Assembly (NCBI GenBank): GCA_030603745.1
Contig: JAUVXE010000009.1
Location: 1-64,000, forward strand
DNA: 64,000 nucleotides
Source of the DNA: Coriobacteriia bacterium
GTDB lineage: Bacteria > Actinomycetota > Coriobacteriia > Anaerosomatales > SLCP01
Direction: 5' to 3'
Below are positions 6,429-49,287 of the stretch, piece after piece. The notes under the pieces are model-generated. The model was given only the letters and a program-made list of their open reading frames with translations, was not told the origin of the DNA and did no database searches. The position numbers were made by a program, and so were the translations under genes. Numbering within the stretch: position 1 is the stretch's first letter; each line of letters opens with the position of its first letter.

Positions 6429-6669
6429 GTGGGTGGGCTCCTCGTCCCTCGTGCGCCCGGGGGCGCGACTCGTTGCGCAACCACACGATTCTACCGCACG
6501 GCCCCGCGCCGCACACGTGATCCGTCACCGTGCCGTGACCGGCTGGCCCCCGACCACGAGGAGGACTCTCATCATCCGAGGGGATGATTCCGAAGGTCAT
6601 GTACGCACAGGCTGGGCAAGATTGTGTAAGGTAGTCGCGTGGGGGACGCGGATCCCTGGCCGGGAGTGT
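6429..6669 (+). other. Divergent intergenic region between the sugar operon and the surface protein gene
   Basis: No gene is supported here. For the minus-strand operon, a -10-like TAGAAT lies on the minus strand over 6488-6493, about 60 bp before the oxidoreductase start, without a convincing -35. For the plus-strand gene no clear promoter is visible; TGTGTAAGGT near 6625-6634 is a weak candidate. The structured leader described separately begins at about 6670. Confidence 0.4.
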
Positions 6670-6777
6670 GGGCGCTGAGGCCGGGGGGAGTCAGTGGCGC
6701 AACCGACCCATCATAGGTGAGGACTGAGAAGGCCCGTCGCTGTTCGGGGGAGCAGCGCGCACAGGGGCCGTCAGCCC
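6670..6777 (+). ncRNA. Candidate structured leader RNA, copy A
   Basis: A stem closes this element: GGG-CTGA-GGCC (6670-6682) pairs with GGCC-TCAG-CCC (6766-6777), about 11 pairs with small bulges. Inside is GGGGGGAGTCAGTGGCGCAACCG (in part 6683-6704) and a CGCTG/CAGCG hairpin (6738-6742 with 6753-6757). The block from the G-run to GCAACCG, and the CAGCCCAT at the 3' side of the closing stem, recur in the element at 41,048-41,128. It ends 16 bp before the start of the surface-protein gene, close to its ribosome binding site. I do not recognise a known riboswitch class; the case rests on the shared blocks and stems. Confidence 0.45.
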
Positions 6778-15681: not shown

Positions 15682-15855
15682 CGGCGGATCCGGTTCGTCG
15701 CGGTCGGTTCGTTCGGGCTGCGTTTCCGGGTCCCACTCTAGTCCACAGGCGGCCCGACAGCCACGGCCGCGCGACGGCGGATCGTGCCGGTGGCGATATC
15801 CCGGGTGTGGGACGATAATCGGGGAGCCGGTTGAGCGGCGCCGGCTGGGAGGCCG

Positions 15856-16410
15856 ATGAAGCGCTTTGTCACATACGAAGAGTTCCTCGGCGCCGACCAG
15901 GCGTACTTCGCCGATCGTTGGCCGTACCTGAGTGCGGTCATCGGCATGCTGGAGCGGATGGAGTTCGATTCGTGCCTCGAGCTCGGAACCAACGGGTTCC
16001 CGCTGGTGAAGGGGTCCGACACGATGGACCTCACGCCGTTCGACGGTCTGACCTATCGGCACGATGCCCGGGAGCCGTTCCCGTTCGGCGACAAGACGTA
16101 CGATCTGTTCGTCGCGCTCCAGGTCTGGGAGCACCTCGACGACCACCAGGAGGCGGTCTTCGCGGAGGTGATGCGGACCTGCCGCGCGGCGGTGCTCTCC
16201 TTTCCCTACCTGTGGCACTCCCCGGAGAGCCCGCGCCATCACGGACTGGGACACGACACCTTCTCCCGGTGGACGCTCGGGGTGCGCCCCGTGAAGCGGC
16301 GAATCATCTGGAGGGGCCGTGCTCTCCCGGCGGCCGTGCCCGATGCGCTCGTTCGCGGTCGGTTCGCCCGGGCAGTGTACGTCTTCGACTTCGACAAGGC
16401 GGGCAGATGA
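15856..16410 (+). CDS. SAM-dependent methyltransferase-like protein
   Basis: A 184-aa protein with the core of a class I methyltransferase: CLELGTNG as the SAM-binding loop (motif I), DTMDLTPFDGL, then FPFGDKTYDLFVALQVWEHLDD and AVLSFPYLWH. It is shorter than most glycan methyltransferases. It heads a run of four plus-strand glycan genes joined by ATGA/GTGA overlaps. A GATAAT at 15813-15818 may be the -10 of this operon. It could modify a sugar or glycan end; the substrate cannot be inferred. Confidence 0.75.
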   Translation: MKRFVTYEEFLGADQAYFADRWPYLSAVIGMLERMEFDSCLELGTNGFPLVKGSDTMDLTPFDGLTYRHDAREPFPFGDKTYDLFVALQVWEHLDDHQEAVFAEVMRTCRAAVLSFPYLWHSPESPRHHGLGHDTFSRWTLGVRPVKRRIIWRGRALPAAVPDALVRGRFARAVYVFDFDKAGR

Positions 16411-17474
16411 GCGAGGACTCCCTCGGCGGATGGACCGACCCGTACGGGCGTACACGCGACTCGCTCGCCGCGCGCGTGGATGACTTCGCGCCCGGACTCG
16501 TCTCGGTCGTCATCCCGTGCTTCGACATGGAGCGCTTCGTGGCCGAGGCGATCGAGAGCGCCCTCGGCCAGACCTGGCCCGACATCGAGGTCATCGTGGT
16601 CGATGACGGCTCGACCGATCGTAGCCGGGAGATCATCGAAGGCTACGGCGACCGGGTCATCGCGCGCTTCCGGGATAACGCCGGCGCTTGCGTGGCGCGC
16701 AACGACGGCCTTGAGCTCGCCCGTGGGGAGTTCATCCAGTTCCTCGACGCCGACGACACCCTCGTGCCGGACGCGGTGGAACGGCGCATCGCCGCCTTCG
16801 CGCCCGGTGTGGGCGCCGTGTTCGGCGATCGCGTGCACGTGACCGCCGAGGGGCGTCCAGCGCGGTGGGCGCTCCCCCCGCACTCCGAGCGCGTGTGGGA
16901 GTCGGTGGGGATGATCCAGTACGTGCTCTTCTGGGGCATGGGCGTGTTCGAGCCGTTGCACCGGCGGGGGTGGGTCATGCGGGTCGGCGGATTCGACGAG
17001 GCCCTGCCGAGCTCCCAGGAGCCCGACTTCCATCTCCGGCTCCTGCTCGCGGGCAGCCGGTTCGAGTATCTGCCCGGAGTGGCGGGCATACAGCGTCATC
17101 ACGCCGCGCCGACCCGCATCAGCAACACCGCGTGGTGGGAGAGCGGGTCCAAGGCCCGCCTTGGCTACTGGCGCCATCGCATGGCGCTCATCTCGGCGGT
17201 CGACCCCGGCTTGGTCGATGGTCCTTTCCGGGACCGGGCGGCCCGCCGGCTCATCAGCGATGCGGTGCACATCACCCGCTTTGGCGGGGGCGAACTCGCG
17301 CGCGACTACTATCGCGAGGTGGTCTCGCTGTTCCCCGGCTACCGGCCGGAGGGGATCCCCGGCGTGGTGGTGCGTCTCTTCGGGCTCTGGACCGCGATCC
17401 GCCTCGGCGCCTGGCGCATCAGGGTCCGGGAGGGGGTGCGCGCTGTGGTGGACCGCCTCGGCGGTGGCCGATGA
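16407..17474 (+). CDS. Glycosyltransferase family 2 protein
   Basis: A GT-A fold glycosyltransferase of 355 aa. The ATG at 16407 overlaps the methyltransferase stop (ATGA). The family hallmarks are clear: LVSVVIPCFDMERFVAEAI, VIVVDDGSTDRSREII, ARNDGLELARGEFIQFLDADD (the DxD metal site) and, further on, GGFDEALPSSQEPDFHLRLL. No membrane segment is obvious. It probably adds one sugar to the lipid-linked glycan on the cytoplasmic face. Confidence 0.88.
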   Translation: MSEDSLGGWTDPYGRTRDSLAARVDDFAPGLVSVVIPCFDMERFVAEAIESALGQTWPDIEVIVVDDGSTDRSREIIEGYGDRVIARFRDNAGACVARNDGLELARGEFIQFLDADDTLVPDAVERRIAAFAPGVGAVFGDRVHVTAEGRPARWALPPHSERVWESVGMIQYVLFWGMGVFEPLHRRGWVMRVGGFDEALPSSQEPDFHLRLLLAGSRFEYLPGVAGIQRHHAAPTRISNTAWWESGSKARLGYWRHRMALISAVDPGLVDGPFRDRAARRLISDAVHITRFGGGELARDYYREVVSLFPGYRPEGIPGVVVRLFGLWTAIRLGAWRIRVREGVRAVVDRLGGGR

Positions 17475-29165: not shown

Positions 29166-29845
29166 CGCACGACATCGAACCTGTCGCCGAGGACGCCGCT
29201 ACGTCCGAGGAGATCCCGCCCGAGCACCTGGTGCCGGGCTGGCTCGCCGCGCTCGTCCTCGTGTTGTTGCTCGCCGTGGTGGGCCTCGGCGGGTTCCTCG
29301 CGCGCGGCCTGCTCTCCGAGCCGCGCTACGCCTCACCCGAGGAGCGCGAGGTCCGGGTGCGCGAGACCGAGCTCGCGAGTGATCCCGACGACATCCAGGC
29401 GCGCCTCGCGCTCGGGTACGCCTACCAGCAGGCCGGCCGGCTCGAAGAGGCCCTCGCCGAGTACGCGGCGGTCCTCGAGCTCGTGCCTACCGACACCGCT
29501 GCCCTCTACAACACCGGCGTGATCCGCCGCGAGCTCGGTGAGGACGCCGAGGCCGAGGCGGTGCTCTGGGAGGTCCTCGAGGTCAACCCCGAGCACGTGC
29601 TCGCGGCCAAGGCCCTCGGCGAGCTCTACGCCGACCGGGCACACTACCGCTCGCTCGTCGAGGCGGTCCGCCCGGCCGCCGAGGCCAACCCGAGCTCGGC
29701 CGACCTCCAGTACCTCATGGGCCTCGCCTACGAGAACCTCGGCAGGATCGACTGGGCCGCCGAGCGCTACCGGCTCGCGCTGACGTACTACCCCGACATG
29801 CCCGAGGCCCGCGAGGGTCTGGAGCGGCTGGGGGTGGAGCAGTGA
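29162..29845 (+). CDS. Membrane-anchored TPR protein
   Basis: A 227-aa protein with an acidic N-terminal tail, one membrane helix (about 27-50, GWLAALVLVLLLAVVGLGGF) and four to five TPR units (for example ARLALGYAYQQAGRLEEALA, ALYNTGVIRRELGEDAEAEA, DLQYLMGLAYENLGRIDWAA) on the outer side. TPR arrays hold protein partners together. Being coupled by overlaps to Rex on one side and the NHL protein on the other, it may scaffold cytochrome assembly at the membrane. That role is inferred from context only. A comparable membrane TPR gene lies at 54,419. Confidence 0.8.
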   Translation: MTHDIEPVAEDAATSEEIPPEHLVPGWLAALVLVLLLAVVGLGGFLARGLLSEPRYASPEEREVRVRETELASDPDDIQARLALGYAYQQAGRLEEALAEYAAVLELVPTDTAALYNTGVIRRELGEDAEAEAVLWEVLEVNPEHVLAAKALGELYADRAHYRSLVEAVRPAAEANPSSADLQYLMGLAYENLGRIDWAAERYRLALTYYPDMPEAREGLERLGVEQ

Positions 29846-30927
29846 GCGAACGCGCCGCCTTCCGCCTCACGCCGAGGCAGTCCTTCATCGCGCTCGCGGT
29901 GGTGCTGGTCATCCTGCTGATCGGGCTGCTCGTCTTCCTGCTCATCTTCCTGCGGCCCGGCGGGTTCACGATCGAGGGTGGCGACGAGGTCGCAGGTCTG
30001 CGCCCGGTGCTCACGATCGTCGGCCCGGGACAGGGGGAGAACCCCTCGTTCGACCGCCCGATGGCCGCCGCGTACGGTCCGCAGGGGCGCATCTACGTGA
30101 GCGACACCAACCACAACCGCGTCACGGTCTTCGACCGCAACGGACGCTACCTGTTCGAGTTCGGCGGGTTCGGTATCGCCAAGCCGCTGCCCGGCTACGA
30201 GGTCACCTGGGAGCCGGGACTGTTCAACTATCCCGTGGGGATCGACGTGGACGATGACGGCGATGTCTACGTCGCCGACTTCCGCAACGACTCGATCCAG
30301 GTCTACGACGCCGACGGCGCGTTCATCCGCCGCTTCCCCGAGCCCACCGAGGTCGTGGGCAGGGGCGCGTCGGGCCAGGACGGCCTCGGCATCGCCGTGA
30401 CCGACGTGGCGGTACACGACGGCTTCGTCTACGCGCTCGACGCCTACCAGGTGGTGGTCTTCACCACCGAGGGCGAGTTCGTCCGTCAGTTCGGACGCCC
30501 CGGCACCGGCCCGGGCGACCTCGACCGTCCCAACGGCATCGCGGTGGCCGACGACGGCACCGTGGTGGTCGCCGACTCGAACAACAACCGCGTGCAGGCG
30601 TTCACGCCCGAGGGCGAGGTGCTCTGGGTCGCCGGTGAGCCGCAGCGCTCGGGCGCGACCACCGAGACGGCGGGCGTGCCGGAGAACGGATTCGGCCTGC
30701 CGAGGGGCGTGGGCGTGATGCGCGACGGCACGGTGGTCGTGGTCGACTCGTTCGAGTTCGAGATCGTGCTGCTCTCGCCGGAGGGCCGGGTCCTCAGCCG
30801 GCACGGAGAGCGGGGCGTGCGGCCGGGGCAGCTGAACTTCCCCAACGGGATCGATGTCCTCGGCGACCTGATCCTCGTCTCCGACAAGGAGAACGACCGC
30901 GTGCAGGTCCTCGAGGTCGTTCGGTAG
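29842..30927 (+). CDS. Membrane-anchored NHL-repeat beta-propeller protein
   Basis: A 361-aa protein with one N-terminal membrane helix (about 17-40) and a six-bladed NHL-type propeller outside. Repeated units such as GRIYVSDTNHNRVTVFDRNG, GDVYVADFRNDSIQVYDADG, VVVADSNNNRVQAFTPEG and LILVSDKENDRVQVLEVV show the NHL core. NHL proteins often accompany multiheme cytochromes in electron-export gene clusters of other bacteria (established association, function poorly known). The GTG start overlaps the TPR stop by 4 bp. The cytochrome gene begins 136 bp downstream. Confidence 0.85.
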   Translation: MSERAAFRLTPRQSFIALAVVLVILLIGLLVFLLIFLRPGGFTIEGGDEVAGLRPVLTIVGPGQGENPSFDRPMAAAYGPQGRIYVSDTNHNRVTVFDRNGRYLFEFGGFGIAKPLPGYEVTWEPGLFNYPVGIDVDDDGDVYVADFRNDSIQVYDADGAFIRRFPEPTEVVGRGASGQDGLGIAVTDVAVHDGFVYALDAYQVVVFTTEGEFVRQFGRPGTGPGDLDRPNGIAVADDGTVVVADSNNNRVQAFTPEGEVLWVAGEPQRSGATTETAGVPENGFGLPRGVGVMRDGTVVVVDSFEFEIVLLSPEGRVLSRHGERGVRPGQLNFPNGIDVLGDLILVSDKENDRVQVLEVVR

Positions 30928-31063: not shown

Positions 31064-32137
31064 GTGAAGCGCAGGACCGCAGTTGTCATAGCCGGACTCG
31101 TGATGCTCACCGCGCTTGTCGCGGCGGCCCCCGCGTTCGCGTACGACGAGGTCGGCTCGGGGCGTAGCTGTTACGAATGTCACGGCCTCCTGCAGGGCGA
31201 GACCACGCAGACCGTCGGTTTCGTCGGCGAGCCCCGCAAGGGCCCGCACGGCGGCTACACCTCCACCACGAGCAAGTGCCGGACGTGCCATACCGTGCAC
31301 GCCGCGCCCGCCGAGGGCACCAAGCTCCTGCCCGCGGCCACCATCCGCTCGACCTGTGAGTCGTGCCACGACGGCACCGGCGGTCAGGGCGTCTACGGCG
31401 TGATCAAGGCGCGGACCGGTTTCGACCCGAGCACCGATCCGGGCGGCTCCGCCCACCGCATCGAGGCCGGCGTGACCGAGATCCCCGGCGGCTCCGCGAG
31501 CGGCGGGGTCCGCGAGGCGACCTTCTCGGGGCCCGGCGGTGCGCTCACCTGCAGTGACTGCCACTCGCCCCACGATGCCAACACGGTGGATCCGTTCATC
31601 GGCGACCGGTACCGCACGGCGGTCGGCGATCCGGACGCGAGCTACGGGGTGGCCAGCAACCGCCTCCTGCGCCAGCAGCCGGTCTCGGGCGACCTCGCCG
31701 TCGACGTGTACGGCGGTGGCTGGTGCGCGTCGTGCCATCAGGGGCACAACCCGATCAACGCCGTGAACCACCCGGTCCACCTCGATGACACGTACTACTA
31801 CGACAACGTCGCACGCTACGCAGGCCCGGGCGCCTACGACCTCGGCCCGCTCGGCCAGAGCAACGCCGGCTACGTGCTGCCTGACTGGCCCGTGGGTTAC
31901 GAGCCGATCTGCCAGCAGTGCCACGAGGACGTGCGCCGCGTGGGTCGCGTGACCCCGCGCGAGCTCGATGCGAGCGAGGCGTTCACCATCACCGGAGCCG
32001 ATGGCACCGTCGAGACTGACAACCCGCGCTTCCAGACGTTCCCGCACGAGAGCGAGGCGCCCGGGTTCCTGATCGTCGACACCGATGTCGACGGCATGGA
32101 CGCCCTCTGTCTCAACTGCCACACGATGGGCGGCTAG
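31064..32137 (+). CDS. Secreted heptaheme c-type cytochrome
   Basis: A 357-aa exported cytochrome. The signal peptide is clear (MKRRTAVVIAGLVMLTALVA, cleavage probably after PAFA). Seven CxxCH motifs are present: CYECH, CRTCH, CESCH, CSDCH, CASCH, CQQCH and CLNCH. The last lies six residues from the C-terminus. Spacing of the first three (CYECH…CRTCH…CESCH) is tight, and later ones are spread out with intervening beta-rich sequence. There is no membrane anchor, so it is either free in the wall space or bound to partners. It probably carries electrons between the membrane cytochromes and the giant surface cytochromes; this is inferred from position. Confidence 0.9.
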   Translation: MKRRTAVVIAGLVMLTALVAAAPAFAYDEVGSGRSCYECHGLLQGETTQTVGFVGEPRKGPHGGYTSTTSKCRTCHTVHAAPAEGTKLLPAATIRSTCESCHDGTGGQGVYGVIKARTGFDPSTDPGGSAHRIEAGVTEIPGGSASGGVREATFSGPGGALTCSDCHSPHDANTVDPFIGDRYRTAVGDPDASYGVASNRLLRQQPVSGDLAVDVYGGGWCASCHQGHNPINAVNHPVHLDDTYYYDNVARYAGPGAYDLGPLGQSNAGYVLPDWPVGYEPICQQCHEDVRRVGRVTPRELDASEAFTITGADGTVETDNPRFQTFPHESEAPGFLIVDTDVDGMDALCLNCHTMGG

Positions 32138-37980: not shown

Positions 37981-38002
37981 CGCCCGAGCGACAGACCGAT
38001 CC

Positions 38003-38036
38003 GCAGAGGGCGGAGCCCAGAGCCCCCGCCCTCTGC
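38003..38036 (+). terminator. Strong hairpin after the 15-heme cytochrome gene
   Basis: GCAGAGGGCGG (38,003-38,013) pairs perfectly with CCGCCCTCTGC (38,026-38,036) around a 12-base loop, 22 bp after the stop codon. No U-run follows, so it may be an imperfect terminator or an mRNA-stabilising end that lowers expression of the lipoprotein and maturation genes relative to the cytochrome. Confidence 0.55.
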
Positions 38037-38056
38037 ATGCCTCCCGGAGGAGCGGC

Positions 38057-38596
38057 ATGACCTACGCGCACAGGACCATCCTCGTCGCCGCCGTGGCGCT
38101 CGGCCTGCTGGTAGGGCTCGCGGGGCTCGCGGGGTGCAGCCGCGCGGCGACCGGTGATCCGGACAACGACGTGGTGGTCCCCGACCGGGTCATTCCTGCC
38201 GACCCGGACCTCTCCGCTCCCGAGCCAGCGGTCCGCTCGTACCTGGAGTGGGTGTCCTTCGCGTACCGCATGGCCAACTCAGACATCCCCACCGCGACCA
38301 TGACCCCGTGGCAGGCGGTGCGCATCGACGCCTACATCGAGCTCAACCGCCAGAACGGGGAGGGGATCGACCAGGAGCTGCTCGCCTTCGTAGTGCGTTC
38401 GAGCTCGGAGGACGCCACCTCGGCGGTGGTCGCCGCCGACGAGCGTTGGCGCTTCCGCTACTTCGGCCTCAACACCCTGCGCTACACCTCCGATCCGCTC
38501 GAGGTGAGCTACGAGACCACCTACACCCTGACCCTTGTGGGTGACCGTTGGCTCGTGGACCAGGTCGAGGCCGAGCCGCTCGGGCCGCTGGAGTAG
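38057..38596 (+). CDS. Small lipoprotein of unknown function
   Basis: A 179-aa protein with a lipoprotein signal peptide: hydrophobic stretch LVAAVALGLLVGLAGLAG and lipobox LAGC with the lipidated cysteine near residue 27. The mature part has a mixed alpha/beta pattern with RSYLEWVSFAYRMANSDIPT and a final antiparallel strand pair (VSYETTYTLTLVGDRWLVDQ). This resembles NTF2-like/SnoaL-type lipoproteins that accompany exported proteins, but I cannot name a family. It carries no heme motif. The start is preceded by CGGAGGAGCGGC. It sits between a giant cytochrome and resB, so a role in assembly is possible. Confidence 0.75.
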   Translation: MTYAHRTILVAAVALGLLVGLAGLAGCSRAATGDPDNDVVVPDRVIPADPDLSAPEPAVRSYLEWVSFAYRMANSDIPTATMTPWQAVRIDAYIELNRQNGEGIDQELLAFVVRSSSEDATSAVVAADERWRFRYFGLNTLRYTSDPLEVSYETTYTLTLVGDRWLVDQVEAEPLGPLE

Positions 38597-38599: not shown

Positions 38600-40003
38600 G
38601 TGGCGCGCACCCGGGGCTCCTCGGCGATCAGACGGCTCTTCCGTTCCCCGCGCACGGCCGCGTGGCTGCTCGTACTCCTCGGCGTGTGGATGGGGCTCGC
38701 GACCGCCGTGCCGCAGGGAGCGCTCACCGACCCCGACGTCGCCGCGTGGCGGGCCGCGTATCCCGTGCTCGCCTCGGCGGCCTCGTTCCTCGGCCTGCAC
38801 CGCGCCTATGTCGCGCCGCTCTTCCTCGCGCTCGTCGCCCTCCTCGCGCTCTCGACCGCGGTGTGCTCGTGGGAGCGCACCCGCACCGCGCTCGCCGCAT
38901 GGCGCTCCGTGGGCGTCGTCGATCCGGCCCGGGTCCGCCGCCTCGAGGAGTCCCCCGCGTTCGTGGTCGACCTCGCCGGGAGCGCTGCGGCCGACCCGCT
39001 CGAGTCCGCCGGGGAGGCGCTGCGTTCCCTCGGATTGCGGGTACGCCGGGGCCCGCGCCTCGCCGAGGCGTACAGCGGCGCCTGGTCGCGGTTCGCGAGC
39101 CCGCTCTTCCACTGGTCGCTCGTGGGCCTGTTCGTCGCCATCCCGCTCGGCCAGCTCACGATGGCGAACGGACTGCTCGGCGTGCCGGTCGGCGGCGTCG
39201 TGCTCGACGAACCCTCCGCGTACGGGCTGCTGGAGCGCGGGCCGCTCAACCGGTCGCTCAGCGGTCTTGCGGTGGGCGTCGAGGAGATGCCCCTCGCGTT
39301 CGAGGCGGCAGGGGTGGACCGGGGCGCGGCACCCCTGGTGACCCTCGCGACCCGCGACGGATCCGAGGTCGCCCGGGGACACGTGTACCCCAACGCGCCA
39401 CTCAGGCACGGCGCCCTCGTGGTGCACATGAGCGACTACGGACTCGTCGTGCGCGTCTCGCTCGTGGACGCCGGGGAGCCGGTCGCCGAGACCGAGCTGC
39501 TCCTCGACTTCGATGACGACGCGGCCGACGGCACCACCACCGGCGAGATCGGCCTCTACGCCGAGGACGACTCGAACATCGCCTCCGTGCGCGTGGGCGC
39601 CGTGCTCGAGCGCACCCCGGACGGGCTCGTCTACCGCAACCTGCCGGCTGACCCGCGGGTCCGTCTCGGCCTGACCGACGCGCGAACCGGCGAGGTCGTG
39701 AGCGCGGAGCTCGGTGTCGGCGAGACGATCGAGACGCCGGCGGGGACGCTGCGGGTCGAGCACCTCGGCTACTATGCGAGACTGTCGATCGTCGAGGACC
39801 GCACGGTGCCGATCGTCTACGCGCTCCTCACGATCGCCTCGATCGCCGTGGGGGTGGCGCTGCTCGTGCCGCACCGCTCGGTGCTCGTGCTGCTGGCCGG
39901 CGAGTCCGGCGCGCGGCGCCTGCACGTGTCGGTGCGCGGCGGCAGGCAGGACCCGGACTTCGCAGGACGCGTCCGAGACGCGCTGGAAGGGGAGGGACGA
40001 TGA
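38600..40003 (+). CDS. resB: ResB-like system II cytochrome c biogenesis protein
   Basis: A 467-aa protein with the ResB/Ccs1 layout: membrane helices near residues 20-40, 70-95 and 165-185, a large extracytoplasmic domain (about 190-390) and a last helix around 415-435. The N-terminal FRSPRTAAWLLVLLGVWMGL resembles the start of ResB proteins. With the CcsA/ResC partner (overlap of 4 bp), it moves heme to the outside and attaches it to CxxCH motifs. It begins with GTG three bases after the lipoprotein stop. Placement among cytochromes needing dozens of hemes suggests a dedicated maturation pair. Confidence 0.88.
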   Translation: MARTRGSSAIRRLFRSPRTAAWLLVLLGVWMGLATAVPQGALTDPDVAAWRAAYPVLASAASFLGLHRAYVAPLFLALVALLALSTAVCSWERTRTALAAWRSVGVVDPARVRRLEESPAFVVDLAGSAAADPLESAGEALRSLGLRVRRGPRLAEAYSGAWSRFASPLFHWSLVGLFVAIPLGQLTMANGLLGVPVGGVVLDEPSAYGLLERGPLNRSLSGLAVGVEEMPLAFEAAGVDRGAAPLVTLATRDGSEVARGHVYPNAPLRHGALVVHMSDYGLVVRVSLVDAGEPVAETELLLDFDDDAADGTTTGEIGLYAEDDSNIASVRVGAVLERTPDGLVYRNLPADPRVRLGLTDARTGEVVSAELGVGETIETPAGTLRVEHLGYYARLSIVEDRTVPIVYALLTIASIAVGVALLVPHRSVLVLLAGESGARRLHVSVRGGRQDPDFAGRVRDALEGEGR

Positions 40004-40830
40004 CGCTCGAGATCGTGCTGATGTGGACGGCCGTGACGCTCTACGCGGCCTCATCGGTCGTGTTCGTGGTGGCGACGGTGTTCGTGCGCCCGCGACTCGA
40101 CGACGTCGCGCTCTGGATCGGGCTCGCGGGGCTCGTCCCCCACGCGGTCGCGATCGGGGTCCGGTGGGAGCGCGTCGGGCACGGCCCGTACCTCGGCTTC
40201 TACGAGGTCGTCTCCTCCTACGCGTTCATCTCGGTCGCCGCTCTCGGCCTCATCGCGTGGCAGCGCCGGTCGCTCGCCCGCGTGGGCGTGCTCCTCATGC
40301 CGATCGCGTTCCTCATGCTCGGAGCATCGATGTTCACGCCGAGGGCCGACCTCGAGATCACCGCGACCCTCGCCTCGTGGTGGCTCACCATCCACGTGGC
40401 CTTCGCCAAGCTCTGCTACGGGGCGTTCGTCGCGTCGTTCGCCCTCGCGTTGCTCTACCTGGCCCGGGGCCGGGCGACCGGACTCCTCGCCGAGGCACTC
40501 GAGCGCCTGCCCCGGCAGGAGGTCATCGACGACCTCGTCTACCGGTTCGTCGCCGTGGGCTTCGTGTTCCTCGGCATCATGATCGTCGCCGGGGCGATCT
40601 GGGCGAACGAGGCGTGGGGGCGGTACTGGGCGTGGGATCCGATCGAGACGTGGTCGCTCATCTCGTGGATCGTCTACGCGCTCTATCTGCACGCGCGCCT
40701 GCTCCTGGGCTGGCGCGGGCGGCGGTCCGCGTGGTTCGCGGTCGCGGCGCTGCCGGTCGTGCTCTTCGCCCTCATCGGCGTACCGCTCGTGTACAACTCG
40801 ATCCACGGGGCGTACCTGCAGGGGTTCTGA
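40000..40830 (+). CDS. ccsB: CcsA/ResC-type cytochrome c biogenesis (heme handling) protein
   Basis: A 276-aa integral membrane protein of the heme handling family with about eight helices. It carries the tryptophan-rich heme-binding segment WGRYWAWDPIETWSLISW and conserved flanking histidines (for example TIHVAFAKLCYGAFV and YLHARLLLGWRG). Together with ResB it forms the system II heme export and ligation complex. The ATG overlaps the resB stop by 4 bp. The family is universal in system II organisms; here it is embedded in the cytochrome locus. Confidence 0.93.
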   Translation: MTLEIVLMWTAVTLYAASSVVFVVATVFVRPRLDDVALWIGLAGLVPHAVAIGVRWERVGHGPYLGFYEVVSSYAFISVAALGLIAWQRRSLARVGVLLMPIAFLMLGASMFTPRADLEITATLASWWLTIHVAFAKLCYGAFVASFALALLYLARGRATGLLAEALERLPRQEVIDDLVYRFVAVGFVFLGIMIVAGAIWANEAWGRYWAWDPIETWSLISWIVYALYLHARLLLGWRGRRSAWFAVAALPVVLFALIGVPLVYNSIHGAYLQGF

Positions 40831-40929: not shown

Positions 40930-40959
40930 TTGACCTGCGTCAATTCCGAGGAGCATAAT
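40930..40959 (+). promoter_or_regulatory. Sigma-70-type promoter for the 43-site cytochrome gene
   Basis: TTGACC (40,930-40,935) and CATAAT (40,954-40,959) are separated by 18 bp, the best -35/-10 pair in the window. A start near 40,966 would give a leader of about 220 nt before the GTG at 41,188. The leader contains a GGTGAC/GTCACC hairpin (40,979-40,996) and the structured element at 41,048-41,128. Confidence 0.65.
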
Positions 40960-41047
40960 CCGCCCGAGCCATGTCCGTGGTGACAGTCCCGTCACCAAGG
41001 GGCCGGATGTGGAGCGAATCGGAAGCGTTGATCCATCGTCCGCGAAA

Positions 41048-41128
41048 CTGGGCACCTGGGCGAGGGGGAGCGAGTGGTGCAACCGGCCGTGTCGCAGCGG
41101 CCGGCTTTTTTGTTGTCCGGGTGCCCAG
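41048..41128 (+). ncRNA. Candidate structured leader RNA, copy B
   Basis: CTGGGCACCTGG (41,048-41,059) pairs with CCGGGTGCCCAG (41,117-41,128) in a 12-bp closing stem with one G-T pair. Inside are GGGGGAGCGAGTGGTGCAACCGG (in part 41,064-41,086) and a terminator hairpin. The internal block and the CAGCCCAT overlapping the 3' arm also occur in the element at 6670-6777. Copy B lies between a good promoter and the cytochrome start, the layout of a riboswitch or attenuator. I could not match it to the GEMM, ydaO, cobalamin or other classes I can recall. Confidence 0.5.
41083..41110 (+). terminator. Intrinsic terminator inside the leader of the 43-site cytochrome gene
   Basis: CCGGCCG (41,083-41,089) pairs perfectly with CGGCCGG (41,098-41,104), followed by C and six T residues. 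This is the only textbook rho-independent terminator seen in the window. It lies within the leader, 77 bp before the start codon and downstream of the promoter at 40,930, so it would stop transcription before the gene unless overcome. Confidence 0.75.
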
Positions 41129-41187
41129 CCCATCAGCAGAGGCCCGCCGCACACCGTAGGCATGACGCCGAGCAGGGGAGCGGGCTA

Positions 41188-44100
41188 GTGGGTAAACGGA
41201 TTCTGTTCATGGCCGGGGTCGCGGCGCTGCTGATCGCGCTGTCTGCCACCATCGCGTTCGCCGAGGTCCCCTCGGCGCCCTTCGAGACCAACAGCCAGTG
41301 TCTCGACTGCCACGATGTCGCCGCCGGCGGGCCGGTGCTGAGCACCGTCGACTTCCGCGCGCCGGGCGAGGTCGACTACAACCGCTGCGCCACCTGTCAC
41401 CTCGGGCTCCCGGACCAGATCATCTTTCGCGGCGAGCCCGCGCTGACCCACTATCACGCGGCGTTCGAGTGGTGCGGAGACTGCCACACGGATGACTTCG
41501 ACCCGATCTTCGCGCTGCCCGTTGAGGGCCCGCGCGTCGACGGCTTCCTGACGCTGACGAGCTACGGGTTCTTCGCCGGGCTCGACTCCCTCGCGGCCTC
41601 TCCGGAGACCCTGCACGACGTGCACATGAACCCCAGCTGGGTCGAGTCGATGTTCTCCGCCGAGTACCCGCAGTGCTCGCGCTGCCACGCCTCGGCCGCC
41701 TGCAGCACCTGCCACACCGACGCCATCGCGCACGGCAGCCATGCGCTCCCCGACTATCCTGGCCTCGTCTACAAGCAGGCGACCGGCCTGACGTCCGTCA
41801 TCGCGCCCTCGACCTGCGTCGATCCGGCGTGCCACTCGCTCCTCTCGGCGGGGAGCACCGCGTTCAACGAGCCCTCGTGCCTCGGGTGCCATGAGGCGGC
41901 CGTCTTCGGCGAGATCCACGGCTACGACAGCGTGAACCACGTCGCGCCCGTCGCCGCCGAGGAGTTCGAGGGCGTCGAATGCGCGTCGTGTCACCACATG
42001 GACCTCATGACCGAGCACGAGAAGCCGACGTCGGTCTCGGCGGGTGGCAGCTGCTTCACCTGCCACCCCTCGCCGCGCGACACCTACGGCGCGTGGGAGC
42101 AGGGCTGCCAGCAGGGCGGCTGTCACGCTCCTGCTTCCGCAGCGGAGCCGCACGCCGCGATGGCCGCTGCCCACACGCCGCCCTCGGCTGCGGCGATCTG
42201 CGGTGAGTGCCACGGCGCGACGCTCGACAGCGCGCACCTCGGTGCGAGCACCGTGGTCGACGGCGTCACCCACGAGTCGTGCAACGTCTGCCACCGGCCG
42301 GACTATCTCGCCGGGACCGCCGACTGCACCAGCTGCCACTTCACCTTCGACGACCACTACGACGAGGCCGCCCACGAGAGCACCTGGTCGCTCGACGGCT
42401 GCATCGCCGAGGGCTGCCATACGAGCAACGCCCTGATGGCAGAGCATGAGGCCGCGCGGCCCGGTTTCACCTGCATGGACTGCCACGCCGCTCCGATGTC
42501 TGCCGATGCGATCGCCGCCGGGGACACCGCGTGCAACGCGTGTCACACGAGCATCGTCGAGAACGACGCGCACCGCGCGGTGCACTGGGCGCTGCCGCCT
42601 CTGGTGAGTGGGAGCTTCCCGAACATCCAGGGCAACTACAGCTACTACCTCGGCACCGCGGGCGGTGCGCGCACGACCGACTGCGCCGGGTGCCACACGT
42701 CCAACCTCGTGGACGAGCACATGGGTCTGCAGGATTCCGGTAACTGGATCAGGATGCCGAGGGGTGACCGTTCGGGCACGGCGTTCGACTGCGCGACCTG
42801 CCATAACTCGCTCGACCCGCAGGTGATGGGCGCGATCGCCCTGGACCGCACCGCGTGCGACGCCTGCCACACCGTGCACGGTCCGATCCCCGCGGTGCAC
42901 GCATCGGACTTCGTCGCGGACGCTCCGGTCGACTGCTCGGGCTGCCACTCGTCGGACCTGACCGTGGTGCACGGCGGGTTCATGACCACCGTGACCGACA
43001 CCGGCCGGACGCTCGCCGGTTGCGACATCTGCCACGGCTACTACGACTCCGACGGTGCGCGGGGCGTGGAGGTCCGGGACGCGATCGCGGCGCGTGACAC
43101 CAGTTGCACCGCATGCCACGCGGAGTACCACGGCGACATGGCTGCCCACAAGGCGACCGCGTCCGCCTCGGCCGACGACTGCGGTCGCTGCCACGGCCCC
43201 GTCGTCGACGGCGAGCTCAACGTCGAGCCGGTACACGCCGGCGCGTCGCTGGGCGCGTGCGCCGTCTGCCACGCCAATCCCGCACGTATCCCCGACATCA
43301 CCTCCAGGACCGCCGAGTGTGCGAGCTGTCACGCGGTCGCCGGAGAGACGTACCACCGTGCAGCCACCGAGAAGCACACGTTCGGCGCGATGGACGCGGG
43401 CTGCCTCGGCGCCGGCTGTCACGTCGCCACCACACTGCCCGAGGAGCACGAGCGCTTCCTCGGCAGGTATGACGGGTACGCCGACACGTGCGCGCTCTGC
43501 CACCTCAACGACGATGCCGACCGCATCGACTGGGCCACCGCCTCAGCGGAGTGCTCGAGCTGCCACGAGGTGCACGGCGATATCGACGAGCTGCACGCCG
43601 CGCCCGGCTCGCAGGAGTGTGTCGACTGCCACGCGAGCAGCGACGTCCGCGATCTGCACGGGCAGAGCCCGGCGGCCTCCTGCGCGGTCTGCCACAACAG
43701 CGAGGTCGACACGAGCGGGACCGCCGCGTGCGTGAACTGCCACGACTACTCGCCTGTGGCCGAGAAGCACTACCGCATCGAGCCTCACGAGTCCGGGGAG
43801 TCCGCGGCGTGCGCGTCGTGCCACCACCTCGAGCTCGTGACCGAGCACGAGCGCATCGACGAGCCGGTCGACTGCGTGGGCTGCCACACGGTCGACGGGT
43901 TCCCCGCTCCGTGGGACGGCACGTGTGGCTCGTGTCACCCGCAGATCCACGGTAACCTCGGCGACAAGCACGTCTCCGAGAGCGCGGGCTGCGGCGGCGA
44001 CGGTTGCCACATGATCGGCGACGCGTCGAGCGTCCATGCGGCGCTTCCCCAGAGCGGCTGCTGGGCGTGTCACACTCCGCTCTCGGCCGATGTCACCTGG

Positions 44101-46473
44101 GGTGCGCTCAGCTGGACCGGCGTGGTGCCGACCGGCGCGTCGCTCAGCTTCGACGTACAGGGTCGCGTGAACGGCTCCTGGCAGACGATCCCGGGCCACG
44201 CGGGTCTGAGCGGCATGAGCATCGACCTGTCCCGTATCGATCTGGCTGTCTATCCCAAGCTGCGGATCGTCGCGCACTTCGCCGCCGACCCCACGCTCGC
44301 CAAGACCCCGCGTATCGATTCGTGGGCGGTGACCGTGCGCAAGGCGATCGGTGACGAGCCCGAGAGCGAGCGCATCGTGTTCAGCCAGACCGCGGTCGCC
44401 GAGTTCGAGCAGAACGAGCTCGTGCAGACCGTCGCCAGCCCCGAGTTCGGCACGGGGGCACTCGTGCTGGGGACGCAGGGCGGATCGAGCTCGGTCACCA
44501 CGGCCGACCTCCTCTTCGCACAGGTCGGCCGCAGGACGGGCGAGTACTTCCAGTACCTGCCAGCGGAGAACGCATGGAACCAGGCGAACTCGGCAGGGTT
44601 CCGGCCGTCGAGCCAGTCGTTCTTCGAGCCGCGCAAGGGGGCGACCCTGGTTGCGGCGGACGGGAAGCTCTACCTGTCGCGCGGCGACGGGAACCGGGAT
44701 CGCGCCGTCTACACCCCGCCCCCGGCCGGCGGGACCACGGGCTCCTGGCAGCGGGCGTCGAGCGCTTCGCACACGCTGAACCGCGGATCGGACGCGGCTG
44801 TCGACCCCGTGCGTGATCGTGTGTACTACACGCGGGGTGGCGAGCAGAAGGAGATCCTCCGGTGGCGCCCGTCCACGGACACGTGGGACTCGGCCATCAA
44901 CTTCAGGATCGGCTGGAGCGACCGCTCACTGAGTGTCGGCTCCGCGATCGCGTACTCCGCCTCGGCCGACCGACTCTTCGTCATCAACCGCAACCGCACG
45001 AGCGGTGACGGACGACTCTACTACCTGGCCGCGCCGTCAACCAAGAGCGGGAACCAGAACTTCACCTCGACCGGCGTCCAGGTGACGCTGAGCGGGAGCA
45101 GCGAGCGCTGGAACCGTATGGTGAGCGCGTCGGTGGGTGGCAACGAGCATCTGTTCATCCTCGGCCAGGACAGCGGGGACCGCAGCGAGTTCCAGGTCGT
45201 CTCGAACCTCGGCGCGAGCACGCCGACCCTCACCAAGGTCGGGCGGTACCCGTTCCCGAGCCGGCTCGGAGAGGGCGCGGACCTCGTGTGGGACGGTGGT
45301 CAGTATCTCTACGCCATCCCCGGCGCGGATCGGTGGGAGTTCGCCCGCATCCGGATCCCCTCCAACCCTGCGAGCGCGTCCGCGTGGGGCGCGTGGGAGC
45401 TCCTGACCCCGCCTGCCGACTCGAGCAGCCGCCAGTGGCGTGAGGGCTCGTGCATCGGGTTCCTGCCGTTGCTCGTGGAGGGTCCGTCGACCGCCAGCTA
45501 CTATCCGGCGGGCAGCGTGACCACGCTTGGCATCATGCCGCAGGGCGACACCCGGGCGACCACCGACTGCCTCAGCTGTCACGCGGCTTCTGAGGACGGT
45601 CACCGCTCGGCCCACGAATCGGTGTCGCACAACCCCAAGGGCTGCGGCGGGTGCCACTACACCAACCTGGTGGACGAGCACGAGATGGCCGGCTACGGGT
45701 GCCAGGCGTGCCACTCCTCGGCGAGCGCGGTCGTGCTGGGCGCGATCGCGTCCGGTGACCAGCGCTGCCTCACCTGCCATCCGGATTCGCCTCACAACAA
45801 GCGGCAGGCGTTCGAGTTCAATCCCGCCAACGCCTCGGGACACAACATCGACTCCAACGTCTGGCCCAAGACGTCGTTCGTCGTGAACGGTCAGAACTAC
45901 AGCGTCGGGTTCCCCACGTCGAACGTGTTCACGGCCGGCTGGAACCAGGACTCGGTCATGACGTGCGAGAGCTGCCACACCTACGACAAGAGTCAGGCCA
46001 CCGGGCCGCACGGCGGTCAGGCCGTGGTGAACATCGATCCGGCGTATCCGAATCCCGTTCGCGATCTGGGCCGGGGCGAGGCGAACACCGCACAGCTCTC
46101 GAAGAACTCCCCGACCGGCATGAGCATGAGCAAGTCGGGCAGCCAGCCCGCCAAGATCATCTGCGAGAAGTGCCACGACCTCTACAACGGCAGCAGTTGG
46201 AGCAACATCGCCCACAAGGAGCACGACGACCGTGGACGCAACGGCGCCTACTGCAACCACTGCCACGTGGCGGTCCCGCACGGTTGGGTTCGGCCGAGGC
46301 TGATCGGCTACCGGAGCGACCCGGCGCCGTATCGGACCTCGCCCGGCGGTCTGACGCGTATCACGCTCCGCTCGTACACGCCCAGCACGTGGAGCGGAAA
46401 GGACCTCTGCGGAGCCGAATGCTCGACCGGGCGCCACCCGCTGAACGAGCCGTACCAGCGGTCCTGGCCATAG
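41188..46473 (+). CDS. Giant secreted multiheme cytochrome with 43 candidate heme-binding motifs
   Basis: 1761 aa from the GTG at 41,188, which follows CAGGGGAGC and starts a clear signal peptide (cleavage after IAFA). I count 38 CxxCH and five CX4CH motifs (CVDPACH, CQQGGCH, CIAEGCH, CLGAGCH, CGGDGCH). Thirty-six lie in residues 38-962, about one per 26 residues, with many extra histidines as likely distal ligands. A beta-sandwich (about 965-1055), a kelch-like propeller (1105-1430) and seven more motifs (1461-1693) follow. The C-terminus matches that of the 15-heme protein. There is no anchor. The heme density suggests a conductive wire-like N-terminal part for long-distance extracellular electron transfer. 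Confidence 0.92.
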   Translation: MGKRILFMAGVAALLIALSATIAFAEVPSAPFETNSQCLDCHDVAAGGPVLSTVDFRAPGEVDYNRCATCHLGLPDQIIFRGEPALTHYHAAFEWCGDCHTDDFDPIFALPVEGPRVDGFLTLTSYGFFAGLDSLAASPETLHDVHMNPSWVESMFSAEYPQCSRCHASAACSTCHTDAIAHGSHALPDYPGLVYKQATGLTSVIAPSTCVDPACHSLLSAGSTAFNEPSCLGCHEAAVFGEIHGYDSVNHVAPVAAEEFEGVECASCHHMDLMTEHEKPTSVSAGGSCFTCHPSPRDTYGAWEQGCQQGGCHAPASAAEPHAAMAAAHTPPSAAAICGECHGATLDSAHLGASTVVDGVTHESCNVCHRPDYLAGTADCTSCHFTFDDHYDEAAHESTWSLDGCIAEGCHTSNALMAEHEAARPGFTCMDCHAAPMSADAIAAGDTACNACHTSIVENDAHRAVHWALPPLVSGSFPNIQGNYSYYLGTAGGARTTDCAGCHTSNLVDEHMGLQDSGNWIRMPRGDRSGTAFDCATCHNSLDPQVMGAIALDRTACDACHTVHGPIPAVHASDFVADAPVDCSGCHSSDLTVVHGGFMTTVTDTGRTLAGCDICHGYYDSDGARGVEVRDAIAARDTSCTACHAEYHGDMAAHKATASASADDCGRCHGPVVDGELNVEPVHAGASLGACAVCHANPARIPDITSRTAECASCHAVAGETYHRAATEKHTFGAMDAGCLGAGCHVATTLPEEHERFLGRYDGYADTCALCHLNDDADRIDWATASAECSSCHEVHGDIDELHAAPGSQECVDCHASSDVRDLHGQSPAASCAVCHNSEVDTSGTAACVNCHDYSPVAEKHYRIEPHESGESAACASCHHLELVTEHERIDEPVDCVGCHTVDGFPAPWDGTCGSCHPQIHGNLGDKHVSESAGCGGDGCHMIGDASSVHAALPQSGCWACHTPLSADVTWGALSWTGVVPTGASLSFDVQGRVNGSWQTIPGHAGLSGMSIDLSRIDLAVYPKLRIVAHFAADPTLAKTPRIDSWAVTVRKAIGDEPESERIVFSQTAVAEFEQNELVQTVASPEFGTGALVLGTQGGSSSVTTADLLFAQVGRRTGEYFQYLPAENAWNQANSAGFRPSSQSFFEPRKGATLVAADGKLYLSRGDGNRDRAVYTPPPAGGTTGSWQRASSASHTLNRGSDAAVDPVRDRVYYTRGGEQKEILRWRPSTDTWDSAINFRIGWSDRSLSVGSAIAYSASADRLFVINRNRTSGDGRLYYLAAPSTKSGNQNFTSTGVQVTLSGSSERWNRMVSASVGGNEHLFILGQDSGDRSEFQVVSNLGASTPTLTKVGRYPFPSRLGEGADLVWDGGQYLYAIPGADRWEFARIRIPSNPASASAWGAWELLTPPADSSSRQWREGSCIGFLPLLVEGPSTASYYPAGSVTTLGIMPQGDTRATTDCLSCHAASEDGHRSAHESVSHNPKGCGGCHYTNLVDEHEMAGYGCQACHSSASAVVLGAIASGDQRCLTCHPDSPHNKRQAFEFNPANASGHNIDSNVWPKTSFVVNGQNYSVGFPTSNVFTAGWNQDSVMTCESCHTYDKSQATGPHGGQAVVNIDPAYPNPVRDLGRGEANTAQLSKNSPTGMSMSKSGSQPAKIICEKCHDLYNGSSWSNIAHKEHDDRGRNGAYCNHCHVAVPHGWVRPRLIGYRSDPAPYRTSPGGLTRITLRSYTPSTWSGKDLCGAECSTGRHPLNEPYQRSWP
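45811..46470 (+). repeat. Shared C-terminal cytochrome module, copy in the 43-site protein
   Basis: Residues 1542-1761 begin FEFNPANASGHN and repeat the element order of the 15-heme protein: NVWPKT, AGWNQDSVMTCESCH, IDPAYPNP, SPTGMSMS, IICEKCH, VPHGWVRPRL and CGAECSTGRHPLNEP. Roughly three of five residues agree along about 220 positions by eye. Confidence 0.88.
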
Positions 46474-46669: not shown

Positions 46670-48100
46670 TTGGCGGACCACGACATCGCACGGGGCGATC
46701 TCGAGCAAACAGGGTCGAGCGAAGACGAGGGGCGAACTCGTGCCTGGCCGCTCCTGCTCCTGTTGCTTCTCCTGCTCCTGTGCGCCGTCATCACGATCGT
46801 CGACACGGTCATCGATCGCGGACCCGACAGGGCACGCTTCATCGCACGCAACCTCGAGTGTCTGCAGTGCCACACCGAGCTGATCCCCGAGCTCTCGATG
46901 GCGTCCGTGCACAGCCCGTTCCTGCTTGAGGACTGTACCGTGTGCCATACGCCACACGGCAAGGAGGTCGAGAGGACGCTCATCTCGGGCTCGACGAGCA
47001 CCTTCCAGCGCGTGCGCACCGTGATCGAGTGGCTTCCGCTCCGCTGGATCCTCTCGACCTGGGACTCCGTCACCGGCGTGACCGAGACCGACGCCGGAGG
47101 CCGGGTCGTCTCGCGGACGACCGAGGAGGTGCCGGGTGGCCGCTCTGAGCTGACCGCGCCCGCTGACGAGCTCTGCTGGATCTGCCACGGGAACCTCGGC
47201 GCCGAGCTCGGGATGGCCTACCAACACGCGCCCTTCACCAACGGGAACTGTCTCGACTGCCACGCGCCCCATGCGTCCGACTGGCAGGGGCTGCTCGCGC
47301 AGGACCCGCGCGATCTGTGCATGACGTGCCATGGGAGCATCGGAGCGCAGATGGCCCGGCAGCAGCTGCACGCGCCGGTGGAGAGCCGCTTCTGCACCGA
47401 CTGCCACCTTCCGCACGCGTCCGAGTGGAAGGGCATCCTCACGCAGCGCCAGCGAGACCTCTGTTTCACGTGCCATCCGTCGGTGGCCTCGCTCAGCCGC
47501 ATGCCCGTGCAGCACCAGCCGTTCGAGTTCGACAACTGCACCGGGTGCCACGAGCCGCACGGCTCAGACTATGTGCCGCTGCTGATCGACGCGGAGCCGC
47601 GCGTGTGCTACCTCTGCCACGCCGACATCGAAAGCGACTTCGGCAGGGTGAGCGTGCACCCCGTGGGCACCGCACAGCTCAACTGCTCGGACTGCCACGA
47701 CCCGCACGCCGCGCAGTACGAGGCGCTCCTCGCCGCGCGCGACAACGAGATGTGTTACCAGTGCCACCGCGAGGGCCTGCAGGTCACCTACGACGCCTCC
47801 GACCACGGCCGCCTGCTCTGCGTGCGGTGTCACACCCCGCACGGTTCGGATTTCCGGCCGATCCTGCGCGACGCCAACCCGGACATCTGCCTCACCTGTC
47901 ATGGCTGGGTCGAGGCACACGACAACCAGCACCCCGTCAGGCCGGTGTACTATGATGTGAGGGCCGGCACGCCGATGACGTGCACGTCGACCTGTCACGG
48001 GCCGCACGGCACCGAGTTCCCGATGATGGTGCGGTTCGTCCCGTGGCCGTTCGACGGCCGCTGCTTGCAGTGTCACAGCAGGGTAGGAATCGATTTCTAG
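46670..48100 (+). CDS. Membrane-anchored multiheme cytochrome with doubled CxxCH repeats (15 heme motifs)
   Basis: 476 aa. The only sensible start is a TTG at 46,670 just after GGAGGAG; no ATG or GTG occurs in the first 25 codons. One membrane helix (about 27-48, Leu-rich) is followed by 14 CxxCH and one CX3CH motif (CTSTCH). The motifs alternate as in the doubled-CxxCH family: LCWICHGNLG…NCLDCHAPHAS, LCMTCHGSIG…FCTDCHLPHAS and so on, each unit about 45 residues with CH-x-PH[AG]S. It would sit in the membrane facing the wall and pass electrons from the NapC-type protein outward. It is followed 23 bp later by that gene. Confidence 0.9.
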   Translation: MADHDIARGDLEQTGSSEDEGRTRAWPLLLLLLLLLLCAVITIVDTVIDRGPDRARFIARNLECLQCHTELIPELSMASVHSPFLLEDCTVCHTPHGKEVERTLISGSTSTFQRVRTVIEWLPLRWILSTWDSVTGVTETDAGGRVVSRTTEEVPGGRSELTAPADELCWICHGNLGAELGMAYQHAPFTNGNCLDCHAPHASDWQGLLAQDPRDLCMTCHGSIGAQMARQQLHAPVESRFCTDCHLPHASEWKGILTQRQRDLCFTCHPSVASLSRMPVQHQPFEFDNCTGCHEPHGSDYVPLLIDAEPRVCYLCHADIESDFGRVSVHPVGTAQLNCSDCHDPHAAQYEALLAARDNEMCYQCHREGLQVTYDASDHGRLLCVRCHTPHGSDFRPILRDANPDICLTCHGWVEAHDNQHPVRPVYYDVRAGTPMTCTSTCHGPHGTEFPMMVRFVPWPFDGRCLQCHSRVGIDF

Positions 48101-48123: not shown

Positions 48124-49287
48124 ATGCCCAAGGTACGGTTGATCGGTGGATTCAAAGACCCGCTCACGCGTCCGCGCTACATCATCTGGACGGGAGCGGT
48201 GGTCCTCCTCCTCGCGGCGTTCGTCGTCACCGCGCTCGGTGTCACCTCGACCTACTGGTTCTGTGCCGAGGTCTGCCACAAGGTGCAGGACGACTCGATC
48301 ATCGCCTACGACCGTTCCGCGCACTCCGAGGTCTCCTGCATGGCGTGTCACGTCCCGGTCGGGATCACGCCCATCGGGTTCGTGCTCAAGAAGGCCGAGG
48401 CGCTCGGCGAGCTCTACCTGACCGCGACCAACAAGTTCCACCTGCCGCTCAACCCCGACTCCCACCTGGCGCTCAGCCGCAAGTACTTCCCTGAGAAGCA
48501 GTGCAACCAGTGCCACAACCTCGAGCTTCGGCCGGTCACTCCGAGCCCCGGCATCATCATCGACCATGCGGTGCACTCCGAGAACGACATCCAGTGCACC
48601 GCATGCCACAATCGCACGGCGCACGTCGAGGACTTCGACCTCACGCTCACCGATCCCAACACCGGCGAGCCCAACCAGAAGCACGACGACTTCATGCTCA
48701 TGACCGCGTGCTTCCGCTGCCACACGCTCACCGAGGACTCCCCGAGCGGGATCTGGGCGCCGGGCGCGTGTGAGGCGTGCCACACGCCCGGCTTCGAGCT
48801 CATGCCCGACAACCATCGCGTCGAGGGCTTCTACGAGCTCTTCGGCGAGAGCAGCGGTCACGCCGAGATGGCGCGCGAGGAGTACGAACGCGCCGGAGAG
48901 GCGTTCACCGAGTGGCAGGCCCACGTGGGCGACCTGACCGACTACGACCTGCCGGTCGTGCCGGTGGCCGCGGTCAACTACTGCTCGACCTGCCACGTGG
49001 AGCGCGAGTTCTGCGACGGGTGCCACGGGATCGAGATGCCGCACCCGGCTGGGTTCGCCGAGGCCCACGGTGACGACGGGCGCGCGCGTCCCGAGGTCTG
49101 CGAGACGTGTCACGCGACCGCCGAGGGCGTGGACTTCTGCAACGCCTGCCATCACCCGCAGGGAGACCCGACGCGCGACTGGATCCCGCAGCACATGGGG
49201 GCGGTCCGCGAGAGCGGCGCCCAGGCGTGCTTCGACTGCCACGCGCCGACGTACTGTGCCGAGTGCCACGTCCGTGGGGGGAGCTAG
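48124..49287 (+). CDS. NapC/NirT-type membrane-anchored multiheme cytochrome, probable menaquinol oxidant
   Basis: 387 aa from the ATG at 48,124; the longer open frame is shadow. One N-terminal helix (about 20-42) precedes CAEVCH (a CX3CH site), HSEVSCMACHVP, KQCNQCH and CTACH, the NapC/NirT/NrfH-like quinol-oxidising core. About eight more motifs follow, for a total of 11 CxxCH and one CX3CH. NapC-family proteins take electrons from menaquinol and hand them to periplasmic or surface partners. The extended C-terminal heme part is longer than in NapC (about 200 aa) and may replace a separate carrier. It is the last gene of the cytochrome run. Confidence 0.9.
   Translation: MPKVRLIGGFKDPLTRPRYIIWTGAVVLLLAAFVVTALGVTSTYWFCAEVCHKVQDDSIIAYDRSAHSEVSCMACHVPVGITPIGFVLKKAEALGELYLTATNKFHLPLNPDSHLALSRKYFPEKQCNQCHNLELRPVTPSPGIIIDHAVHSENDIQCTACHNRTAHVEDFDLTLTDPNTGEPNQKHDDFMLMTACFRCHTLTEDSPSGIWAPGACEACHTPGFELMPDNHRVEGFYELFGESSGHAEMAREEYERAGEAFTEWQAHVGDLTDYDLPVVPVAAVNYCSTCHVEREFCDGCHGIEMPHPAGFAEAHGDDGRARPEVCETCHATAEGVDFCNACHHPQGDPTRDWIPQHMGAVRESGAQACFDCHAPTYCAECHVRGGS

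Follow-up and report, generated by a model that had tools for sequence, protein, structure and literature searches.

Among the proteins encoded in the window (the whole stretch of DNA analysed, 64,000 nucleotides of contig JAUVXE010000009.1 from a Coriobacteriia bacterium), a secreted cytochrome carries 43 candidate haem sites, most of which appear to form tandem triheme units resembling cytochrome c7. As judged from its sequence, this protein is rather probably the outer haem-chain segment of an extracellular electron route, the synthesis of which would be released by c-di-GMP. The riboswitch ahead of the gene, the triheme repeat, the inserted propeller-like module and the accessory place of the gene in a conserved cluster go beyond the preliminary description of this DNA.

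Haem motifs of the protein

The recount of motifs gave exactly the 38 CX2CH and five CX4CH sites in 1761 residues reported earlier, and no CX3CH motif occurs in the 1761-aa protein (Table 1). Each of the 43 CH dipeptides belongs to exactly one haem motif, and only 3 of the 89 cysteines lie outside such motifs. The concentration of 36 motifs toward the N-terminus was borne out, these being located in residues 38–962 ahead of a haem-free insert, and the remaining 7 lie in residues 1461–1693. In residues 1–960, 31 CX2CH and 5 CX4CH motifs were counted, compared with means of 0.39 (maximum 3) and 0.42 (maximum 4), respectively, in 2000 shuffles. With a Sec-type signal peptide, assigned by inspection, and 43 motifs, the earlier view of a secreted, very haem-rich protein stands. 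Base composition (G+C 67–73% throughout) gives no support for a recent foreign origin of the gene.

Table 1 Features of the window in and around the gene for the 43-haem cytochrome
Feature	Position	Strand	Remarks
c-di-GMP-II-GAG riboswitch (second riboswitch)	6633..6717	+	RF03169; ahead of secreted PKD/fn3 protein (6794-10066)
NHL-repeat β-propeller protein	29842..30927	+	Core cluster
7-haem cytochrome	31064..32137	+	Core cluster
15-haem paralogue, 1875 aa	32353..37980	+	Shares propeller module and C-terminal domain with the 43-haem protein
LP	37898-38596		ORF
ResB, cytochrome c synthase partner, System II	38600..40003	+	PF05140, 8e-34
CcsA-type cytochrome c assembly protein	40000..40830	+	PF01578, 1.4e-37
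Sigma-70-type promoter-like site	40930..40959	+	TTGACC-N18-CATAAT; consensus match only, 10/12
c-di-GMP-II riboswitch aptamer	41012..41097	+	RF01786; 62.4 bits, gathering score 53.5, E 1.7e-11
Intrinsic terminator	41083..41114	+	CCGGCC...GGCCGG and T-run; the aptamer 3' strand (ACCGGCC) serves as 5' arm
Shine-Dalgarno-like AGGGGA	41174-41179		Upstream of GTG at 41188
43-haem secreted multihaem cytochrome, 1761 aa	41188..46473	+	GTG start; 38 CX2CH and 5 CX4CH
Signal peptide, residues 1-25	41188..41262	+	Sec-type by inspection; VGKRILFMAGVAALLIALSATIAFA|E
N-terminal region, haems 1-7, residues 26-235	41263..41892	+	Outside c7 register
CX4CH site 1, haem 6, residue 210	41815..41835	+	CVDPACH; CX4CH in 17/17 aligned sequences covering the position
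Triheme units 1-9 and first two haems of unit 10 (haems 8-36)	41893..44073	+	1-0-2 free His; unit profile
CX4CH site 2, haem 10, residue 307	42106..42126	+	CQQGGCH; CX4CH in 11/12 with a haem site aligned there
CX4CH site 3, haem 14, residue 405	42400..42420	+	CIAEGCH; CX4CH in 17/17
CX4CH site 4, haem 26, residue 739	43402..43422	+	CLGAGCH; 17/18, exception L033
CX4CH site 5, haem 35, residue 935	43990..44010	+	CGGDGCH; 16/17, exception L040
Haem-free insert, residues 967-1455	44086..45552	+	Partial β-sandwich and β-propeller (putative)
Rest of triheme unit 10 and unit 11 (haems 37-40)	45553..45780	+	Free-His pattern
C-terminal region, haems 41-43	45781..46470	+	Alignment
14-haem cytochrome	46670..48100	+	Membrane-anchored-looking; Paired_CXXCH
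NapC/NirT/NrfH-like 11-haem cytochrome	48124..49287	+	Candidate quinol dehydrogenase

Tandem c7-like triheme units

A translated search covered the genome itself and 60 relatives of the order (61 genomes) and found relatives of the protein in 48 of them, partial matches to single domains included. In an alignment with 17 homologues, which are 38–61% identical to it in the best-conserved stretch of the haem array, nearly all of its CX2CH sites are invariant. The numbers of conserved free histidines after successive haems follow the pattern 1-0-2, repeated eleven times from haem 8 to haem 40 (cut-off 85%; one of these 33 histidines falls just below it, in 11 of 13 sequences). The same string is almost unbroken in nearly every homologue read singly and extends over 59 haems in L041. 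In the c7 cytochrome PpcA, two histidines precede haem 1, one lies between haems 1 and 2, and none between haems 2 and 3. The 1-0-2 pattern is thus the axial ligand order of triheme cytochrome c7, which identifies the repeats as c7-like triheme units. The predicted layout is 7 N-terminal haems, 11 such units and 3 C-terminal haems. Since 42 free histidines are conserved for the 43 haems, it is natural to take all of these as bis-His, and tandem units with this 1:1 supply would be compatible with a continuous haem chain.

Known structures were searched with a profile of ten units only, because a whole-family profile was swamped by the CBM32 tails of the homologues. The unit profile matched all four domains of GSU1996 (PDB: 3ov0) in phase (chain E 1.3e-12); HmcA (2e84) scored as well, and haem motifs alone add to such scores. 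The match to 6i5b, presumably OcwA, was weak (5.6e-7), and no molecules named OmcS, OmcE or OmcZ were among the 60 best chains listed. PF14522 (Cytochrome_C7) reached 87 bits at a cut-off of 24.8, a score to which haem motifs alone contribute, and PF22113 passed (82.7, cut-off 30) as a fragment-level haem match. The decahaem family TIGR03508, which served as the test for MtrC/DmsE, scored 42.3 bits, under its curated cut-off of 192.2. An AlphaFold2 model of residues 26–966, for which only two sequences (the protein and one homologue) were supplied, had a pLDDT of 28, too low for haem–haem distances or an extended shape to be read from it.

Like the 43-haem protein, GSU1996, GSU0592 and GSU2210 from Geobacter sulfurreducens are single polypeptides of tandem triheme c7-like units. 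The Geobacter proteins, however, contain 12–27 haems and are periplasmic in a diderm (PMC10138318), whereas the 43 haems described here would be exported from a probable monoderm. GSU1996 has one His-Met haem per domain (PMC10138318); in contrast, each unit here has three conserved free histidines as in PpcA, so that the His-Met haem marks GSU1996 itself and not c7 units in general. Compared with the Geobacter nanowires, the protein additionally has the CX4CH sites, the N- and C-terminal haem regions, the propeller-like insert and the c-di-GMP riboswitch.

Haem-free insert and C-terminal region

The insert splits triheme unit 10 and is absent from all 17 aligned homologues; it shares 45–46% identity with a module in the 15-haem paralogue. 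Its model (shallow AlphaFold2, pLDDT 57) is nearly all β, with propellers including galactose oxidase and the PLL/PHL lectins as the best Foldseek matches, which suggests a β-propeller-like module. The insert opens with the later part of a β-sandwich, closes with the apparent first strand of that sandwich and resembles a single period excised out of phase from a tandem propeller/sandwich array. One protein of genome G041 (L091, two matches) seemingly holds two copies of a related module, and the 15-haem paralogue also has N-terminal β-propeller repeats and a Big_5 domain.

All six homologues scanned have a CarboxypepD_reg domain and a CBM32-like F5/8 type C domain at their end, a C-terminus that the 43-haem protein does not have. 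Residues 1541–1761 share 66% identity with the neighbouring paralogue and 38–62% with the orthologues; being nearer to its own paralogue than to any orthologue, this region suggests recombination between the neighbouring genes. A frameshifted loss of the CBM32 domain was rejected, the protein ending in ...SWP as the paralogue does and the next gene following ~200 bases on.

Gene neighbourhood

The genes are arranged in the order NHL protein, 7-haem cytochrome, 15-haem paralogue, LP, ResB, CcsA, 43-haem cytochrome, 14-haem cytochrome, NapC-like 11-haem cytochrome and radical SAM protein. The 14-haem gene adjoins the homologue in L032, L034, L035-L037, L042 and L043. L032 keeps the order from the paralogue through LP, ResB, CcsA and the homologue to the 14-haem gene, L042 and L043 keep the homologue, the 14-haem and the NapC genes, and L035-L037 contain a rearranged form of the cluster. 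L105 and L106 hold the core cluster without the homologue and without the 15-haem paralogue, which marks both giant cytochromes as accessory additions to a core route. The 43-haem protein is missing from all eight genomes of the same family (G001-G008), of which three encode the 14-haem protein; it is hence dispensable for that lineage, a point that counts against a wire.

The locus looks like one of the multihaem clusters of Anaerosomatales (Parvivirga, Anaerosoma), which, according to the portions of PMC9686372 considered here, combine MtrA/OmcH-like and quinol-oxidising cytochromes with cytochrome c biogenesis genes. The same portions describe the clusters without a riboswitch, a tandem c7 structure or CX4CH conservation.

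Proposed control by c-di-GMP

A promoter-like site precedes the aptamer (one found, 0.0 expected in shuffles). Of 27 riboswitches inspected, most have the same overlap of aptamer and terminator. Because the ligand-stabilised aptamer and the terminator are mutually exclusive, c-di-GMP should turn the gene on, and the riboswitch is predicted to be an ON switch. Altogether 32 c-di-GMP-II aptamers scored above the cut-off in the 61 genomes of the order; 23 of them stand directly ahead of this cytochrome family, and 3 more lie at contig ends, in genomes with a family gene truncated at its beginning on another contig. Shorter family members (f12, 375–600 aa, 10–14 CX2CH) likewise carry a c-di-GMP-II riboswitch. 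No riboswitch above the gathering score was found upstream of the homologues in L029 and L030, the 5' regions of which are complete. The genome encodes 14 GGDEF domains.

The second riboswitch of the window is followed by the PKD/fn3 protein and then by glycosyltransferases and an ABC exporter (6633-17474). Such genes behind a riboswitch are expected of a matrix locus, and the region is likely a c-di-GMP-controlled one, ~25–35 kb from the cytochrome genes.

Our literature search found no paper joining a c-di-GMP-II riboswitch with a cytochrome. The cGAMP riboswitches of Geobacter are of the GEMM-I class, whereas the aptamer found here belongs to the unrelated c-di-GMP-II class, with c-di-GMP as the expected ligand, and is associated with one gene family. 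In Geobacter, a cyclic dinucleotide riboswitch has been linked to metal respiration and to the genes of multihaem cytochromes (PMC6456294).

Proposed role in extracellular electron transfer

The ResB/CcsA pair encoded just upstream (CcsBA) would mature the 43 c-type haems, essentially all of them bis-His. Starting from menaquinol, the core cluster would bring electrons to the outer side of the cell membrane, and this route would be lengthened by the 43-haem protein: electrons may pass from menaquinol to the NapC/NirT-like 11-haem cytochrome, on to the putatively membrane-anchored 14-haem cytochrome, and then along the 43-haem protein across the wall to a terminal acceptor. The propeller-like module, or in homologues the C-terminal carbohydrate-binding domain, may hold the protein in the wall or matrix or on the acceptor. 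Binding of c-di-GMP would free transcription through the type II riboswitch competing with the overlapping terminator, and this control would tie the wire to sessile, matrix-producing life.

The twelve haems of GSU1996 reportedly span ~12 nm. At this pitch an extended chain of 43 haems would reach ~40 nm, which, as an estimate only, lies inside the 20–80 nm thickness of Gram-positive walls (PMC7911101). The cytochrome stacks proposed to cross the wall in Thermincola are a precedent that counts in favour of a wire (PMC7911101). In the Gram-positive route of Thermincola (ImdcA, PdcA, CwcA, OcwA), as in the one proposed here, a cytochrome on the quinol side and an intermediate are combined with an element that crosses the wall; there, however, many copies of the hexahaem CwcA are proposed to stack across the 20–80 nm wall (PMC7911101), whereas a single polypeptide would form the chain here. 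Very large secreted haem arrays are also known from ANME archaea, whose MHC-A/B/C proteins contain 20–86 motifs and are thought to cross the surface layer (PMC9012536). MHC-A/B possess S-layer domains and C-terminal transmembrane helices; neither was found in the 43-haem protein, in which no S-layer Pfam family occurs. That nothing in the sequence points to a fixed wall anchor (no LPXTG, no S-layer domain seen) counts against a wire, as does the finding that Anaerosoma tenue shows no Fe(III) reduction despite its rich set of multihaem cytochromes (PMC9686372).

The main rival to a wire is electron storage, i.e. a capacitor at the cell surface that would take up tens of electrons when acceptors run out. 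Storage is the favoured role of GSU1996 (PMC10138318), which is one of the two solved structures best matched by the unit profile and the one matched domain by domain. In Geobacter, the monomeric c7 nanowires occur in the periplasm and are regarded as capacitors rather than wires, which counts against a wire (PMC10138318). The range of ~12 to 60 haems among family members suits storage as well as reach. Nonetheless, we consider storage as the primary role unlikely: the partners of a through-route, the quinol dehydrogenase-like and the 14-haem cytochromes, adjoin the gene and surface-binding domains are present, neither of which a store needs, and conduction and storage can coexist. Less probable still is a terminal reductase or a protein in contact with minerals or partner cells, the length of which would serve contact and not wall crossing; its haems would supply electrons, and the propeller or, in homologues, the CBM32 domain would attach to the acceptor or to the surface of a partner. 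The propeller-like insert common to the protein and the neighbouring 15-haem paralogue would suit such a role, as would the F5/8 type C domains of the homologues, but all haems appear bis-His, so that no iron with a free coordination position is evident as a catalytic site, and the domain is swapped among homologues while the haem array stays.

Going beyond the outer haem-chain segment of a single route, we tentatively propose a family of single-polypeptide cables of probably monoderm bacteria with exchangeable anchors and CX4CH or CX5CH sites at fixed places, which would be tuned in length by gain and loss of triheme units and switched on directly by c-di-GMP, through a riboswitch of their own, only when cells settle; this extension we hold to be possible rather than probable. 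If true, one covalent chain of ~43 haems would be simpler than the stack of many small cytochromes in one published model, a defined haem order and a natural length series would be available for relating conduction to length, and a genetic switch would link c-di-GMP, and with it biofilm life, to the export of electrons. Through the riboswitch, part of the claim can be tested in a reporter without culturing the organism.

Conservation of the CX4CH sites

The proposal that the CX4CH sites are retained and not accidental was confirmed, all five being kept in place across the 17 homologues with isolated exceptions; the alignment was checked for loss of the CX4CH cysteines in homologues, and the sites passed this test. 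The common pattern C-x2-[AGDP]-[AG]-C-H given for them applies to the other sites but not to residue 405 (CIAEGCH). The regular intervals described earlier were not found, as the spacings are 97, 98, 334 and 196 residues; the sites instead track the register of the triheme units. Three occupy the first position of a unit, one the third position, and one lies in the N-terminal region. In cytochrome c3, a four-haem unit in contrast to the three-haem units here, CX4CH occurs at haems II and IV. That the CX4CH cysteines are conserved for a disulphide or for structure and bind no haem, leaving a true count of 38, is very improbable: CX4CH spacing is unusual for System II cytochrome c synthases in general, but both cysteines and the histidine are kept at each site, four of the five (haems 10, 14, 26 and 35) fit the triheme register with a distal histidine, the two isolated exceptions still keep C..CH as CX5CH, and cytochrome c3 is an established case of haem bound at CX4CH. 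The exceptions, CTTGTPCH at site 739 of L033 and CGNGNGCH at site 935 of L040, are a natural test of the spacing tolerance of the CcsBA synthase.

Haem number and larger cytochromes of the order

The protein had been ranked among the most haem-rich polypeptides; with 43 sites it is very haem-rich, but the ranking was overstated. The family ranges from ~12 to 60 haem sites, the latter in the homologue L041, other proteins of the order have 72 (L086), 75 (L087) and 93 (L085) candidate sites, and ANME archaea reach 86 haem motifs (PMC9012536).

The L085 protein (L085:2678-15592, minus strand, G031:C40) is an open frame of 4305 aa, truncated where its contig ends. Its 68 CX2CH, 19 CX4CH, 5 CX5CH and 1 CX3CH motifs make up the 93 candidate haems, which exceed the 86 of ANME. 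Of its 108 CH dipeptides, 15 have no cysteine at a usual distance, so that further spacings may exist. L086:4202-13000 (plus strand) and L087:2181-10991 (minus strand) encode related cytochromes of 2.9 kilo-residues from two genera, with four CX5CH sites at near-identical places of both haem strings.
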